A stretch of 27,783 bases of DNA from Asterionellopsis glacialis (taxonomy: Eukaryota > Bacillariophyta > Plagiogrammaphyceae > Rhaphoneidales > Asterionellopsidaceae). Every line of letters starts with the position of its first letter. Positions within the stretch are counted from its first letter, which is position 1. Positions 4,660 through 27,462 of the stretch are shown here, piece after piece. Location of the stretch: positions 21,640 through 49,422 of the forward strand of contig WKLE02000128.1 in assembly GCA_014885115.2 (NCBI GenBank), read 5' to 3'. The notes under the pieces are model-generated. The model was not told the origin of the DNA. It ran no database searches and worked only from the letters and a program-made list of their open reading frames with translations. A program made the position numbers and the translations under genes.

Positions 4660-7600
4660 ATGAGCCCTTTCCCTCCACCAACTAATGTTAAGAGTGCGAC
4701 AGACAAAGAACCACCCATAGAAGGTCGCAAATCTGTAATCTTTTTCTGGGCACCATGGCATGACGACTCTTGTCCTGGTGGTCAACTAGACAAAACTTTC
4801 CTGAACTTTGCTTCGGAAGATTCTTTAATTTTATTTTACCGTGCAGAAGCTGAAGCAGCTGTTGAACTCAGCAATAAGGTAAGGAACAAAAATCGAGTTG
4901 AACCTGCTCGCACTCTCTTTCATAAAAAAAAGGGTGCTCAAAAGTTACTTTGTTGCCTCCAACTATGAATGATGTTCCCAGTTTGAGGTGAATGTCGTCC
5001 CAACTTTCGTCCTGTTAGATGAGTCTGGAAAAGTACTTGACCGAATTGACGGTGACGAGGATGTCTCCTCTCGTCTTGAAAAGGCAATTCATTCTATGAA
5101 GTCTTCCAAATTTTTAGAATCTTACGAGGCGCATGTTGCAGAACGTGCTGCTATGGCGGATGGTATGGGCGTCGTACCCAAACCTCTAGATGCAAAGCAA
5201 GTTGAAGCACTTATTCAAGAAATCAAGCAGTCTGCCACAACGACCCCAGAAACTGACCGACTTGTCTATTTGTTATCGGAAAGAGTCCCCCCTGGGGTTG
5301 ACGATGCCGCCAAAGTGAAGGCAGGATATCTTTCATCTATTGCAACAAAGACAGAATTGCCGACCCTCATTAATAGAGAGAGATCTATAGATTTGCTAGG
5401 TACAATGCAAGGCGGGTATAATGTCCAAACCTTAATAGCTCTGCTCAGTGATAAAAACCACAATATAGCCAATTTGGCTGCTGAGAAGCTCAAACACACC
5501 CTATTAGTATTTGACGCATTCGATGATGTCCTCAGCCTTGCAGAGAGCGGAAATGAAGCTGCAGCATCTGTTATCGAATCATGGGGTGCAGCTGAGTGGT
5601 TTGAGCAAAAGAAAAAAGTAAAGGAAGTAATCACAGTAACGGTATTCAAGGTGAAAGGAGAAACAAACACTGATGACCTTTCTCCAGCCCAAGATGCATG
5701 GAGCCGTCCCGATATTCCGTTGCATGCTGTAGCTATGCTCAAAAATTCACGAGAAGAAACAAACGGAATCAAACCCATTGAAAGTGGTCATATTGGTCCT
5801 CTAGATCAGCTAGAAACTTTGAAAGCAGCAGGATTTCCATTGGCATACGTTGGTGATGTGGTTGGAACTGGTAGTTCCAGGAAATCAGCCACTAACTCTG
5901 TACTTTGGCACATAGGGGAAGACATCCCCTTTGTTCCAAATATTAGAAATGGCGGAGTTTGTATAGGTGGAAAGATTGCACCCATTTTTTTCAATACCAT
6001 GGAAGATAGTGGTGCTCTACCGATCGAAATGGATGTACAAAACCTGAATATGGGTGATGTAATCGACATTTACCCGTTTCAGGGAAAAGTCTGCCGACAT
6101 GGGACCCAAGAGGTTTTGGCGGAATTCACTCTCAAGACTCAAGTATTACTAGATGAAGTACGAGCAGGTGGCCGTATCCCCCTCATCATTGGGAGGGCAT
6201 TAACAGCCAAGGCTCGGAAGGCTCTTGGACAAGATGCATCACTTTCAGATGTTTTCAACTTACCACCAGAGCCAGTACAGAAGCCGAAGGGTTTTACCCT
6301 GGCTCAGAAGATTGTAGGCAAGGCTTGTGGTCTCAAGGGTGTCGTTCCTGGACAATACTGTGAACCTATCATGACGACGGTAGGTTCTCAAGATACGACA
6401 GGTCCGATGACACGCGATGAATTGCGTGGCCTTGCTTGTCTCAACTTTAGCGCTGATTTGGTAATGCAATCCTTTTGCCATACAGCAGCGTATCCTAAAC
6501 CTACTGATGTTGTAACACACAAGACTCTTCCTGATTTCATTCGACAACGGAAAGGAGTTGCCCTCGATGTCGGGGACGGCACAATACACGCATGGCTCAA
6601 CCGCATGACATTACCTGACACAGTGGGTACAGGTGGTGATTCTCATACTCGTTTCCCCATAGGGATTTCCTTCCCTGCTGGAAGTGGCTTAGTTGCTTTT
6701 GCGGCTGCCACAGGCACGATGCCTCTAGATATGCCAGAAAGTGTGCTGGTAAGGTTTTCGGGTGAAATACAACCTGGTATTACTCTTAGGGACCTTGTTC
6801 ATGCCGTCCCATACTCTGCCCAAAAGATGGGCTTACTAACAATAGGAAAGCAAGGAAAAAAGAATATTTTCTCAGGACGTATTGTAGAGTTTGAGGGATT
6901 GCCGAACTTGACTGTCGAGCAGGCGTTTGAATTGACTGATTCCAGTGCTGAGCGAAGCGCCGCTGCATGCACTATCAAACTTGAGAAGGAAGCGGTTACA
7001 ACTTACTTGAATTCAAATATTGTAATGTTGAAATGGATGATTTCGGAAGATTATGGTGATGCCCAGACGCTTGAGCGTCGCATCGCAAGGATGGAGGCAT
7101 GGCTTGCAAACCCAGTTCTTCTTGAAGCAGACCCAGATGCCGAGTACGCGGCAGTGATTGACATTGATCTTAATGAAATCAAGGAGCCTCTTCTTGCTTG
7201 TCCGAACGACCCTGACCATTCAGAGTTGTTGTCTACAGTTGCGGGTACAACGATTGATGAAGTGTTTGTTGGAAGTTGTATGACAAATATTGGCCACTTT
7301 CGTGCAGCCGGCAATATCTTTAAAGAGGCAAAGCCACCACTCCCCACTCGACTGTGGATGGCACCACCGACCAAAATGGACCAGGTGCAACTCCGAGACG
7401 AAGGTTACTACGCAGTTTATGGAAGTATTGGAGCGCGTATGGAAATTCCGGGCTGCTCCCTTTGGTAAGAAGCTGATATCCCATTTGCAAAGTTTTATTT
7501 TCCTTTTGATATCAACATATCATGACTCAGCTGTGACTACCTCATCTTTCTTGTCTTGAACAGCATGGGTAACCAAGCTAGAACTGACCCGGGAACTACA

Positions 7601-7891
7601 GTTGTCTCAACATCTACTAGGAATTTCCCAAATCGTCTAGGTCAAGATACAAAGGTTTACCTAGGTTCAGCAGAACTTGCTGCAATTGCTGCCATTACGG
7701 GAAGAATCCCAACAGTGGAGGAGTACATGTCGCACATGAAAAAAATTTGCTCTAATGCCGAGGATACTTACAAGTATTTGAAATTCGACAAAATGCCCAA
7801 TTTCGTTGAGAATGCCAGCAAGGTGGTAGTCAGTGATGACATGAAGAATGCGGCCCGTTGTCTCGAGTGTGATTGTCCTCTGGCCCAGTAG
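4660..7891 (+). CDS. acnB: Thioredoxin-like (PICOT-type) domain fused to aconitase B
   Basis: Bifunctional-looking aconitate hydratase interconverting citrate and isocitrate. Three exons, 4660-4878, 4982-7464 and 7564-7891, splice to 1009 residues. Residues about 22-113 form a thioredoxin fold like that of PICOT/Grx3 (FFWAPW, a single active-site Cys38, cis-Pro in VVPTF), so it lacks the CxxC dithiol. From about residue 120 the sequence is a full-length bacterial-type AcnB (E. coli 865 residues): a HEAT-like domain with [16 protein letters not shown] and [12 protein letters not shown], a swivel domain with [18 protein letters not shown], then the catalytic core with [10 protein letters not shown]. 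The [4Fe-4S] ligands are Cys839 ([10 protein letters not shown]), Cys898 and Cys901 (CSLC), with the same 59-residue spacing as in E. coli. Intron 2 splits the Cys901 codon. A C-terminal tail adds CLECDC. No clear mitochondrial or plastid presequence is visible, so its location is uncertain. Confidence 0.92.
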
Positions 7892-11207: not shown

Positions 11208-12869
11208 ATGGGCAAAAAATGGGTCGCCAACTTGGATATGTACCGCAAGGTACCTGCGGATTTATTGGAGGGTAGTAGAGAAGGACGACTCTTATCATGG
11301 GCTGCCTTATTGTTGATCATTACCTTATTTACCAAGGAAACACAATCATTTTTAGAAAGTAGTTTGGTGACAGATTTAGCATTGGATAAACGAGTTTCAA
11401 ATCACGAAGCAGGAATATTTACTGGCAAGGGACGAAACCAGAATAATAAAATTCGCGTCAATTTCAACATTACCATGTTGGATTTAAAATGTGAATATGC
11501 TACCATTGATGTCTTTTCAACGTTGGGACACGAACAAAATGTCACACAAAATGTAAATCGTTGGAGTGTAGATGCCGAGGGTATAGCACAAGAATTTGTT
11601 CATCGGAATATGTTACAGCATGACATTGAGTTAAAGGATGAAAAGGTTACAACGACAATTGAAGAAATGCATGAAAATGGTGAAGATGCCATAAGTTTAG
11701 ATCCGCAAAGTTTTGAATTTGCATTACGTGAATATCAATTTGTGTTTATGGACTTTTACGCATCTTGGTGTTCGCATTGTCGTGATTTAGCACCTACATG
11801 GGAGGCACTTGCGAATGTCATGGTGGATGCTGGTATCCATTCGGTAGAGAACAGCGAAGAACATGCCTCCAAGGTACATGAGTATAGTGATGAAGAATAT
11901 GATAAGGCTGTCAATCTAGCCATGCCTGTGGTAATTGCTAAAATTGATTGTGTTGACCATCATGACTTTTGCCGAGAACAAGGTATTATGGGGTACCCAA
12001 CATTACGATTATTCATTGATGGGAAAAGGTATAGCGGCGGTGATTATTATGGCAATCGTAATGTCATGGCAATGACAGAATTCTTAGCCGTTGCAGAAGA
12101 ACGGTACAAAACTGACAATGGTGGTGAAACAGGAGTGATGGATAAGGCACGTGAATTCATGAAGGCTAGGATGAATGTCACGGAAGAAGAACGTCAATGG
12201 GCAGAGGCCGTGGAGCGTACACGTCATGCAACACACGAAAACTGGAATGGCAAGGGTCATCCTGGATGCCGTTTATCTGGTGAACTCATGGTAGATCGTG
12301 TTCCTGGTAACTTTTACATCCGTGCACAATCTAAATCACATGATTTAGCACCTCATATGACCAACGTATCACACATCGTTCATCATTTGTCTTTTGGTGA
12401 CGCGCGTCTCATCAAATACATGTCAGAACGGGCAACGGGCCTTGCATTTCCTGGTAAACTTGTGGAGTCTCTCATGCCCATGGAAGAAAATGTATACATA
12501 ACTCGAAACTTACATGAAGCCTATCATCATTATATCAAATTAATCCCAACCAAAATGGACAATCAAGTGAATACCAATGATAAGGCATGGGAAATGGCAT
12601 CTAATCCTAATTTAGACGTGTATCAAGTATTACAGAGTAGTGAGCTGGCATTTTATCGGACCGATATAGTTCCAGAAGCTAAATTTGTGTTGGACTTATC
12701 ACCAATAGCTGTATCGTATCGTGTTGAGAAACGAGCATGGTATGATTACATGACGTCACTTATGGCTATCATTGGCGGGACCTTCACTGTCCTTGGACTT
12801 TTAGATTCAGGAGTACATGCAGTAGGCAATGCCATATCAAAGAAAAAAGCATACAGACCTGTCAGTTAA
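11208..12869 (+). CDS. ERV41/46-type cargo receptor with inserted PDI thioredoxin domain
   Basis: A 553-residue, single-exon protein with the architecture of plant PDIL5-3/5-4: an ERGIC/ERV41-46 ER-Golgi cargo receptor interrupted by a thioredoxin domain. The N-terminal DMYRKVPADLLEGS plus membrane segment (about 29-41) is the ERV opening, followed by the luminal RVNFNITMLDLKCEYATIDV. The thioredoxin domain (about 165-300) has WCSHC at 187-191, cis-Pro264 in GYPTL and an intervening Cys pair at 248 and 255. The ERV luminal part resumes with GCRLSGELMVDRVPGNFYI (353-371) and HHLSFGD. The second membrane segment is about 515-533, before a short basic tail. The likely role is oxidative folding or quality control coupled to cargo selection in early secretory membranes. 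Position and CRE site suggest co-regulation with the divergent glutaredoxin. The ATG has A-rich upstream context. Confidence 0.9.
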   Translation: MGKKWVANLDMYRKVPADLLEGSREGRLLSWAALLLIITLFTKETQSFLESSLVTDLALDKRVSNHEAGIFTGKGRNQNNKIRVNFNITMLDLKCEYATIDVFSTLGHEQNVTQNVNRWSVDAEGIAQEFVHRNMLQHDIELKDEKVTTTIEEMHENGEDAISLDPQSFEFALREYQFVFMDFYASWCSHCRDLAPTWEALANVMVDAGIHSVENSEEHASKVHEYSDEEYDKAVNLAMPVVIAKIDCVDHHDFCREQGIMGYPTLRLFIDGKRYSGGDYYGNRNVMAMTEFLAVAEERYKTDNGGETGVMDKAREFMKARMNVTEEERQWAEAVERTRHATHENWNGKGHPGCRLSGELMVDRVPGNFYIRAQSKSHDLAPHMTNVSHIVHHLSFGDARLIKYMSERATGLAFPGKLVESLMPMEENVYITRNLHEAYHHYIKLIPTKMDNQVNTNDKAWEMASNPNLDVYQVLQSSELAFYRTDIVPEAKFVLDLSPIAVSYRVEKRAWYDYMTSLMAIIGGTFTVLGLLDSGVHAVGNAISKKKAYRPVS

Positions 12870-15431: not shown

Positions 15432-15478
15432 TTTTCAAATTTGAAAAGTTTAACGGCAATTATATTGCCGTTAAACTT
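15432..15478. repeat. Overlapping palindrome and 15-bp hairpin
   Basis: A perfect 16-bp palindrome TTTTCAAATTTGAAAA (15432-15447) runs directly into a perfect 15-bp stem: AAGTTTAACGGCAAT at 15446-15460, its reverse complement at 15464-15478, and a 3-nt TAT loop. Poly-T precedes it. It could be an extruding cruciform, an RNA hairpin, a protein-binding site or a relic of a small inverted-repeat element. Nothing in the flanks shows target-site duplications. Confidence 0.6.
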
Positions 15479-15744
15479 CATAAATAGAGTGAAACAATGT
15501 AGCCAACTCATCTATACATTTGACATTGCCTTGTATGCTTAGATTCAGCTATAGCTAGCATGGTACTGTTAAGTTTTGTGTAGCCTTTTTTCGGAGTGTT
15601 ATATAACACATAGTATATTGGGTTTAATGTAGAAAAGATCCGTTCAGTATCCGTTGAAACTGCCGAAATCAAAAAAGCGAAAATGACTCCGTATTCATAA
15701 TTAACATATTTTTCAATCCTATGTAATATTAACTACTTATAAAA

Positions 15745-16074: not shown

Positions 16075-17058
16075 ATGTCTACCACAGCTTCAGAAGAGGG
16101 GAGCATTGAGGCGAGTATTGAAGAGCATATGACCGAGCAAGCTCCCAAGAAAAGATTCGACGATGAAACAACATACGGTGAAGGTTTCGAGATGGTTCCC
16201 GGTGGTTCACAAGTAGTTGAGGGAGAATATATTTCCTTCGATGACTCGCAACTTCTCTTCCGGACAAACCTTTTCCTTGGTTTTGTTCACCTCTTAACCG
16301 GAGGAGCTATTATCACGTTTACCGACCAAAACGCTACTGTTCCACTCGTTATCTTTATGCCCAACCAAGATGAGCGAGGAGTAGCTGGTGCAACGACATC
16401 AGCCATACCAGAAGAACTTGAAGCCTTCCCAGCCGGCTGGTACGCCGCAGGAATACTCATCATGGCCGGTTTTCATCATTTTTCCGTTGCTACCTGCCTT
16501 CGATTTTCCTACGAATTTAATCTCGCTCAGAATAGGAATCCCTTCCGATGGTTTGAGTATTCTCTAACGCATGGCTTGATGCACGTAATGGTAGCTCAAC
16601 TAGCTGGAGTTATCTCTCTTCATTTGCTACTTGCCATCTTTGGACTGTCATTTATGACAACGATCTTAGGAAACGAACAAGAAATCCTCAATCTCCATCG
16701 TGACAGGAATGACATCGACGATCTTGTACAGTGGAGACCGTTTGCTTACTCATGGATTCCATTTTGGTTGCAGTGGGGTATTATTGGTCACTTCTTTGCT
16801 CAATATATTACTGAAGGAGACCCACCAGGATTCATCTGGGCTATCGTGATTATTAGTTTTGTACTTGACCTAATGAACCCACTCATTCAATACCTGCAAC
16901 AACGCGGAAATGGCTACTGGAACAACTTTGTTTACGGTGAGCTATGGTTTTGTTTCGTTTCCTTAGTTGCCAAGCAAGGACTTACTTGGATCAACTACGT
17001 TGGTACAGCAACTCTTGCCGGAGAGCCAGAGCGCTGGGATCGCGTTCCTGGACTCTAA
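16075..17058 (+). CDS. Heliorhodopsin
   Basis: Seven-helix retinal protein of the heliorhodopsin family, whose N-terminus faces the cytoplasm, opposite to type 1 and 2 rhodopsins. It has 327 residues and no intron. Membrane segments are about 63-82, 120-141, 160-181, 184-199, 223-245, 253-275 and 287-311. The retinal Schiff-base lysine is K300 in helix 7 (SLVAKQGLTW), with S296 one turn before it as in the family. The counterion glutamate is E161 in NPFRWFEYSL, a hallmark segment. Family histidines match H72 (FVHLL) and H134/H135 (GFHHF). The segment LLAIFG and the helix 6 end IQYLQQRGNGYW also fit. About 55 extra N-terminal residues, strongly acidic, precede helix 1, so it is longer than prokaryotic members (about 250). 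Such proteins are slow-photocycle sensors or enzyme regulators, and one viral member is a proton channel; the function here is unknown. The ATG sits in AACCATGTC context. Confidence 0.95.
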   Translation: MSTTASEEGSIEASIEEHMTEQAPKKRFDDETTYGEGFEMVPGGSQVVEGEYISFDDSQLLFRTNLFLGFVHLLTGGAIITFTDQNATVPLVIFMPNQDERGVAGATTSAIPEELEAFPAGWYAAGILIMAGFHHFSVATCLRFSYEFNLAQNRNPFRWFEYSLTHGLMHVMVAQLAGVISLHLLLAIFGLSFMTTILGNEQEILNLHRDRNDIDDLVQWRPFAYSWIPFWLQWGIIGHFFAQYITEGDPPGFIWAIVIISFVLDLMNPLIQYLQQRGNGYWNNFVYGELWFCFVSLVAKQGLTWINYVGTATLAGEPERWDRVPGL

Positions 17059-24998: not shown

Positions 24999-27462
24999 TC
25001 AAGCGATGTTAATATTTCCTGTTGGAGCTACCAAGGAAACCATTTGTTTAGCTTTGTCATCATCATTATAGTCAGCCCTACTCGTTAAAGAGTAGGCCCA
25101 AAGCCCAATGACAAGAGCTATTACAAACGCTGTAATGACCATAGAAAAATTTATTGCTCCATCGTAGGATTCAGTTGTTGTTGTTGTTGCTTCGGCACAG
25201 GCATCTATCTCCTTCGTTTCACCAATATATTCGCAGCCATAAGGTAACCCATCCAAGCCCTCAAAGAAAGCATTGGCTATCTCCTGTGGTCCATTTGGAA
25301 CTAATGGAATACTTGACCCAGGAACTACTACCAAACTTTCTTTAATCAAATTCGCAGATGTTTCACTATGATTGGCAATGTCAGGGAGTACTGCCAGAGC
25401 AAGCACTTCGCCTGCTGCAATACTTGCATAATCCTCATCTGACATGACGCCATCATTCAAAACTGCAAATCGTAATACACTCTGAATGATAGGGATCAAT
25501 AAAAGATGTTGGAGGTCGTCATCTACTTTCAGAAACCACTTACAATCCGGTGCCTCCAAGGCACCCAGCCCTGCGAACAACAGCGCTTCAATCTCTTGAT
25601 TAATAACAGCATAATTGTTTGCCCCCATGGTGTTGAATTGAAATGCACGCATGTTTGCCAAATTCCAAATCAACTGTCCATCTTCGTAGTCCAAGGACCC
25701 CCCTGCCCCTGGCCCTTCCAACGATCCGATTAAAAATGCTGCCACAAGATCCCAATTGTGGCGAGCACCGTCCGTCCCATCCAGCTTACCAGCATCACAC
25801 TTTTCATGAACAATGGTCATCTGTGCAAAAACAAACATGTGAACAATCTGATATTGAATTGTCTTTGTAATGACTTGATACCGATATTCATCAGACCTGG
25901 TACCGTATTTTCCCTCACCATTCAACGTATTCAAAACAACCTTGTCAGAAAATAAAACATCTCCATGGTACTGGACAAAATCAGTGTAAAAATGATCAGC
26001 TTTTTGACGGAGTGATGTAGTTGCCATCTTGTGCAATGACTGTAACACATATGGATCATTTTCCGTGTTCTGACGTAAAGGATAATTCCGACCGTACAAA
26101 TACAAATATTTTGCAAACTGGTATGAGTCCAATGATGTTAGAATCTTGATCTGATGGATATCTAAATCTATCCTAGATGCCTGCAGTGTGAAATTGGCCA
26201 AACAGTTGGAGAGAAAAACAAAGCTTGAGCCTATCAAAAATTGCAGTGTAAAAAAAATCATATTGCTGCCTTCCCAACGAAAGAAGCTTACTTACGTCTC
26301 TGACATCAGAGGATGGAATATACTCTGCCAAAGGTACAATTTTCTTATTGTCACATTCAATGCCGGAGTATGAACCTACATCTTGGCAGGTAAAGCCTAA
26401 ACATTCGTAAACTTGTTGTAAATCTGCAATGATATTTTCCGGCATGGTATAATCTATAGCGCCAACACCTAATAATTGTGTTTTCAATCGTTTGTACACA
26501 GATGGACGACATTGGACCACTTGAGGGATAACAGCTTCTGCATACAATGATGTTAATTCACGATCCTTATTGGCGATAGCATAAATCAATCCTTGCATGA
26601 GAGGAATGGTAGCCTTGGACATCATTCGTTGTGCAACACTCCACAAATGCGGCATAGAGTCATCATTATTTGGTGTACAAGCATTTGTAAATGAAAGCGC
26701 CGTAACTCCCTCTTGATACAATAGCTTCAAATCAGAATTGACGGGTGATTCAGGATCATTCTGTCCAAAGTAATTCCCCATTTCTTGTGACCAGGTATAT
26801 AATCCGTACCCATCTGACCTGCCAGGTGTTTGGTCCTTCCCAATCCACAGTCCAATAAATTCATCCATTCCTCCACCACCTAACTGTATCATATCCGGAT
26901 TGTCGGCCACACTACGTTTGTAACAACGATCAAGTCCCTGATACAAGAGATACGTGGAATACATCCACATATTCAAAACACGAGTTGCTGTTGTGGCTTT
27001 ACTGGGGTCTTCTGTCAAATACGTCCGTACCCTAACATCAGCATATTTGGAGTTGGATTGAAGATATGATACTTTTGTGGACCGAGTCGTAAGCCCATAT
27101 AATTGATAAAGAAAGGATGGACACGTATCGTTGAGTGGCAAATTAGCTAAATCGTCAGATAAACGGTGAAGTGTCAATCGACGTCCAGTTGCATCAGATC
27201 CAGAATTATGGCCATTCATGTAAACGTTGGTAGCATCATTTACTTTGCCACTCTGTATATGTGTTTCCATATCTCGCAAATCAAGAGCTAAGGCAGCATA
27301 GCGTTCTACATTTGTTTGCGTGACAATGCCTCCTCCTAAATCAAGGCCATCATTATCACCCACACTTTCCCCTACACATAATAGCCCGAACAAAACGAAG
27401 AGCAGTAAACGAATCATTCTTCTACGATGCATCATGAAGCTACTAGCACTTGTCGAAATCAT
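24999..27462 (-). CDS. Type I membrane protein with duplicated FEA1-like ectodomain
   Basis: Two exons on the minus strand, 26296-27462 and 24999-26180, joined by a phase-0 intron (GTAAGT...CTGCAG) to give 782 residues. Residues about 17-32 are a signal peptide. The ectodomain holds two diverged copies of one unit, about 50-330 and 395-690: FIGLWIGKDQTPGRSDGYGLYTW (201-223) aligns with AAFLIGSLEGPGAGGSLDYEDG (535-557), and TIPLMQGLIYA with LIPIIQSVLRFA. A single membrane helix (about 736-753) precedes a short acidic and hydrophilic cytoplasmic tail. The pattern (an IYxxGxN-like start, then WDxxxAFxIGSLEG) recalls algal FEA1/low-iron-inducible proteins, the group related to phytotransferrins. 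Cell-surface iron binding is therefore possible but unproven. Several Cys and N-glycosylation sequons fit an extracellular location. The first of several ATGs is used; the ATG at residue 16 would also leave a signal peptide. Confidence 0.8.

Follow-up and report, generated by a model that had tools for sequence, protein, structure and literature searches.

Heliorhodopsins (HeRs) are rhodopsins whose function is largely open, and their eukaryotic members are little characterised. Solved structures exist for the prokaryotic proteins 48C12 and TaHeR. In 48C12 the retinal is described as sandwiched by F206 and Y108, as it is by W182 and W86 in bacteriorhodopsin (PMC6951262); F203 and F206 of TaHeR are given among the aromatic residues within 4.5 Å of the retinal (PMC8389987), and a discussion of the TaHeR ion barrier lists both, together with Y109, A113 and M116 (PMC9529153). 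One report states that the interior of the extracellular half is wholly hydrophobic in TaHeR and 48C12 and contains polar residues in proton-moving viral HeRs, and it names E191 as the hallmark, with W195 as likely partner, of transport of the kind seen in V2HeR3 from Emiliania huxleyi virus 202 (PMC9448325). Among diatoms, blue light is reported to act on the PtHeR transcript of Phaeodactylum tricornutum in the wild type and not in aureochrome 1a knockouts (PMC7670200), and a Seminavis paper states that diatom genomes encode HeRs (PMC8413402), so the presence of such a gene in a diatom is not new. Here, we describe the HeR encoded in a 27,783-nucleotide stretch (the window) of contig WKLE02000128.1 from the diatom Asterionellopsis glacialis. 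It is a confirmed diatom HeR of a known kind that carries, with the rest of its clade, a change central to the retinal pocket; no description of this change was found in the literature searched.

The change concerns residue 265, in the middle of transmembrane helix (TM) 6, where an aspartate replaces the phenylalanine that forms an aromatic lid over the retinal in 48C12 (F206). Asp is found in 12 of the 13 sequences of the clade and Cys in one, and all 225 other HeRs compared, including 80/80 prokaryotic ones, have Phe. These counts come from an alignment of 158 HeRs (the window protein, the database sequences P0001–P0156 and one viral HeR; 13 clade rows and 145 others), for which protein searches gave 7, the best 120 of 1813, and 35 listed matches, and from 80 named prokaryotic loci among 194 relatives found, so that 145 + 80 make up the 225 others. 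The sampled sequences are without PtHeR, V2HeR3 and the haptophyte and Micromonas HeRs. An aromatic lid is a common trait of HeRs and not a defining one, as V2HeR3 has Trp here; PMC9448325 gives Phe for "most" HeRs at this site, and its authors thus knew of exceptions. No description of Asp at the 48C12 F206 site was found in the open-access literature searched, taken without supplementary files. A natural Asp at a retinal-packing aromatic site, kept across a divergent clade, offers a direct handle on the role of the lid.

Several further positions change with it. Residue 170 on TM3 is His in 9/13 and Arg in 4/13 clade members, and the 225 others have Ile (198), Met (17), Val (7) or Leu (3); none of the 80 prokaryotic loci has His or Arg there, although the scan that found them also sought M[HR]VM stretches. 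Across the 158 HeRs, D265 is paired with H170 in 8 rows and with R170 in 4, the single C265 row has H170, and the 145 F265 rows have I, M or V170. The whole clade has Phe292 (Tyr in 225/225 others) and Asn307 (0/225 others), and its 13 rows lack the Gly and Pro that 223/225 and 221/225 other HeRs have at the sites called G230 and P233, the window protein having Phe and Gln. Two changes are confined to the lineage of the window: N268, shared with P0001 and P0002 where the ten other clade rows and 225/225 others have Phe, and H166, shared with P0001 alone where the other 11 clade rows have Ala (10) or Val (1) and all 225 others Ala or Ser.

The gene itself had been predicted, from its letters, to be an intronless heliorhodopsin distinct from type 1 rhodopsins, with K300 as retinal lysine and E161 as counterion, and all of this is borne out. 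The protein matches PF18761 at 171.4 bits (cut-off 26.7) and the NCBIfam HeR profile NF038020 at 139.8 bits (cut-off 100); a PDB search with it returns 48C12 (E 2.7e-26) and, among further matches, the 317-residue HeR 9vfc, and its predicted model has seven helices in a fold that resembles the solved HeRs more closely than it does type-1 rhodopsins. The type-1 profile PF01036 gives no match to the protein, PF18761 being the only profile reported at E up to 0.001, and a type-1 search of the whole assembly likewise gave none, as was also the case for the control genomes. K300 and E161 fall on K241 and E107 of 48C12 in exact register, the spacing from P251 to K300 being 49 residues, indel-free, as from P192 to K241. 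Lys300 is present in 13/13 clade members and 225/225 others, and Glu161 in 13/13 and 145/145, as well as in the 80/80 prokaryotic loci, which were chosen by the RWxEY motif. The search for those loci relied on NPxRWxEY-like or M[HR]VM-like stretches, and RWxEY served to excise them, so that the selection partly fixes the prokaryotic counts at 158, 159, 161 and 162 but not those at 265, 268, 292 and 300. P0001, from the sources jgi (JGI) and mmetsp (MMETSP), has the same length and 324/327 identical residues, and this full-length match supports both a gene model free of introns and transcription of the gene in a closely related organism. Identity to 48C12 and TaHeR is 26–30%.

Besides the window, two clade members carry species names, Leptocylindrus danicus (P0124; 51% identity, 137/270) and Epithemia clementina (P0131; 31%, 93/304), both Bacillariophyta; the remaining rows are probably algal, judging from their grouping, and P0001, P0002 and P0127 also come from eukaryotic sources. 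Both named relatives resemble the window protein in Asp265, His or Arg170 (Arg in Epithemia), Phe292 and Asn307, and differ from it in retaining F268 and A166. In a tree of 49 of the 158 sequences, calculated without columns 170 and 265, all 13 rows lie on one side of a branch with 84/100 support, and the window HeR groups with that of L. danicus and more distantly with that of E. clementina; without six long rows, the 10 clade rows that remain are held together at 100/100. The tree is unrooted, each of the two runs carries a warning of long branches coming together, and the 84/100 branch is not starred. On the tree, a charged residue at 170 needs one change and D or C at 265 two. The clade row P0129 is short at its N-terminus. 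Another row, P0132, has Glu at 261, the V2HeR3 E191 site, together with Asp265.

A change that arose about once on the tree, and that P0126 carries as Cys265, might be a neutral packing swap at 265 and 170 in one lineage of otherwise ordinary HeRs. We consider this very unlikely, as Asp is kept in 12/13 members, including the most distant, P0133 (77/282 aligned residues, 27%, shared with the window), and 225/225 others have Phe at this site.

With moderate confidence, we instead read the protein as a sensor with an altered photocycle, a slow light sensor working through a polar cluster in the pocket. Going by the conserved residues and the fold, K300 would bind retinal, with E161 as counterion, and light would isomerise it. 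On the intracellular side R158, E203, E289 and H135 are retained. On the extracellular side D265 takes the place of the aromatic residue; His or Arg170 lies near in sequence, as do N268 and H166 in the lineage of the window. Such a polar, ionisable cluster would change colour and photocycle, and it could act extracellularly as another partner for the Schiff-base proton. The slow sensor might then signal through protein partners, perhaps via its cytoplasmic N-terminal tail, for which reports on bacterial HeRs serve as analogy. We infer retinal binding, sensing and the cluster as a physical unit, a contact between D265 and H170 included. Diatoms are major primary producers, and a retinal photoreceptor unlike the bacterial models would bear on how they read light.

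Some observations weigh against an altered sensor. Both pocket Phe side chains are lost, by which retinal binding could weaken, and no partner gene is known. Most of the proton-transfer and cytoplasmic-network residues of 48C12 are retained (R158, E203, E289, H135, H72 and S296), and two are not: S76 is A131 and S111 is T165 in the window, and simulations of 48C12 are reported to show both serines reorienting in proton transfer (PMC9726877). The Cys265 of P0126 breaks the pattern, and the co-occurrence of the changes at 170 and 265 is close to a single event on the tree, with no independent covariation. Coevolution of the two sites was considered as proof of their contact and rejected, since their complete co-occurrence rests on about one change each.

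The same polar residues could serve a light-driven or light-gated proton transporter, in which H166, H170, D265 and N268 would open the hydrophobic seal and act as a proton relay linking the Schiff base to the outside, unlike V2HeR3 with its E191/W195 gate. We regard this as possible, though a good deal short of probable. The barrier sites of TaHeR (PMC9529153) are Y162, H166, M169, D265 and N268 in the window, with H170 adjoining M169, so that besides Y162 the seal is polar at three of its five positions. This resembles V2HeR3, which likewise has polar residues in the extracellular half where TaHeR and 48C12 are described as hydrophobic (PMC9448325), and E289 and Q275 are kept at its E215 and E/Q205 sites, all V2HeR3 sites being transferred through the TaHeR and 48C12 numbering of PMC9448325 and not from V2HeR3 letters. 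Its hallmarks, however, are absent: the E191 site is S261 and the W195 site is D265, the carboxylate of the window lying on the lid position, one helical turn from that of E191. Moreover, EhHeR is reported to have E191 and yet to show no transport, HeRs tested earlier were without ion transport (PMC9448325), and the non-pumping AbHeR is reported to have Ser at the A113 position (PMC9529153), so polarity there is insufficient for transport. Slightly more doubtful still is a broader proposal, that HeRs with Asp265 and His/Arg170 are a separate functional class in which a buried acid–base pair replaces the aromatic lid and moves a proton extracellularly, which would make them a second, independently evolved proton-moving kind in diatoms. 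The D265 clade is well suited to asking what HeRs do, and it could show whether the choice between sensing and transport depends on the extracellular seal.

Loss of the pigment function has also to be weighed, with the pocket now serving another ligand or a role independent of light, and with K300 and E161 as leftovers. It would fit the replacement by D265 and N268 of the Phe pair that lies within 4.5 Å of the retinal in TaHeR (PMC8389987), the loss of the 48C12 S76 serine, and the Phe and Gln at the nearly universal G230 and P233. We think it improbable: K300, E161, R158, Y162, M169, H135, E203 and E289 are unchanged in 13/13 clade sequences, and the genome retains oxygenases resembling apocarotenoid-15,15'-oxygenase (ACO). 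The matches of two RPE65-family oxygenases span almost the entire profile, and ACO is the nearest solved structure for both; a third match, at 23.2 bits, is below the cut-off. With these two putative ACO-like enzymes a retinal source in the genome is plausible. Overall, we rank the altered sensor first, followed by a new kind of proton transporter, which is possible, and then by a protein without retinal, with a neutral swap last.

The N-terminal tail of 54 residues is a further difference from 48C12 and TaHeR. By homology the N-terminus is probably cytoplasmic and the topology inverted, as in other HeRs. In the predicted model the predicted local distance difference test (pLDDT) is below 50 for residues 1–23 and 25–49, and the tail is as conserved as the rest of the protein, with 37/52 aligned residues identical to P0002 compared to 198/273. 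The stretch KRFDDETTYGEGFEMVP is a candidate docking motif.

Table 1. Positions in the window of the heliorhodopsin gene, its key codons and neighbouring features.
Feature	Position	Strand	Remarks
Heliorhodopsin gene	16075..17058	+	Open reading frame, profile and structure-sequence matches; intronless, ATG to TAA, 327 aa
N-terminal tail, residues 1–54	16075..16236	+	Mostly predicted disordered; contains KRFDDETTYGEGFEMVP, 17 residues identical in P0002
E161 codon	16555..16557	+	Predicted Schiff-base counterion; 48C12 E107
H166 codon	16570..16572	+	48C12 S112; TaHeR A113 (hydrophobic seal position)
H170 codon	16582..16584	+	TM3; 48C12 I116
D265 codon	16867..16869	+	Mid TM6; 48C12 F206, TaHeR F203, bacteriorhodopsin W182
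N268 codon	16876..16878	+	TM6; 48C12 F209, TaHeR F206
K300 codon	16972..16974	+	Predicted retinal Schiff-base lysine; 48C12 K241
Bacterial-type aconitase B	5096-7891		Nuclear diatom gene across two open reading frames
ERGIC N-terminal, thioredoxin and COPII-coated ERV domains	11208-12869		Joined in one protein
Inverted repeat	15439-15485		22-nt arms, 86% complementary, 3-nt loop
Fea1 (low-iron-inducible protein) matches	24999-27462	-	Two overlapping open reading frames, 33 and 20.5 bits (cut-off 25)

The gene is a single native diatom gene, in a clade whose two other named members are diatoms, and gives the only HeR match in the assembly of 40.3 Mb and 1503 contigs. A silicon transporter (PF03842) is matched at 278 bits, by which the assembly fits a diatom; of 14 control genomes one matched, under the cut-off. 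Codon usage of the HeR gene is no outlier (distance 0.211 compared to 0.098–0.272 in 12 other open reading frames). ALG3 and aconitase B are among the neighbours, and Cpn60, another neighbour, lies in two open reading frames with a gap consistent with a GT-AG intron. Contamination was considered, and the contig context, the silicon transporter and the codon usage speak against it. The original prediction of a diatom-like nuclear setting therefore holds; of its eukaryotic neighbours with introns, the Cpn60 pair agrees, the check being confined to that pair. Its heliorhodopsin in a diatom stands in identity and context and is weaker as a finding, diatom HeRs having already been reported (PMC7670200).

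The transfer from a prokaryote or virus that it had also raised is not borne out as a recent event, given the position of the clade on one side of a branch with two diatom HeRs, the ordinary codon usage and the viral scans. These scans of a viral collection used short conserved stretches only, and within that scope gave no closer relative of the window HeR and no candidate confirmed with the window protein or with alignment A8; with alignment A1 one contig was found, and a rescan with its own protein returned the same contig. An old transfer may have occurred, the tree being unrooted with long branches meeting in both versions; published work describes transfers of HeRs between marine eukaryotes and viruses (PMC10132985), and a eukaryotic origin of the family has been proposed as well (PMC9601134). 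The viral contig, L002 (rescan, L003; 65 kb, from IMG/VR), encodes at 818-1915 an HeR of 365 residues with an N-terminal extension of about 100 residues and Phe at the 265 site.

Four further features of the neighbourhood are included in Table 1. The aconitase B is of bacterial type, and the protein with joined ERGIC, thioredoxin and ERV domains lies between it and the HeR gene. The two Fea1-like open reading frames are perhaps a single gene with an intron, and the inverted repeat precedes the start of the HeR gene by some 590 bases.
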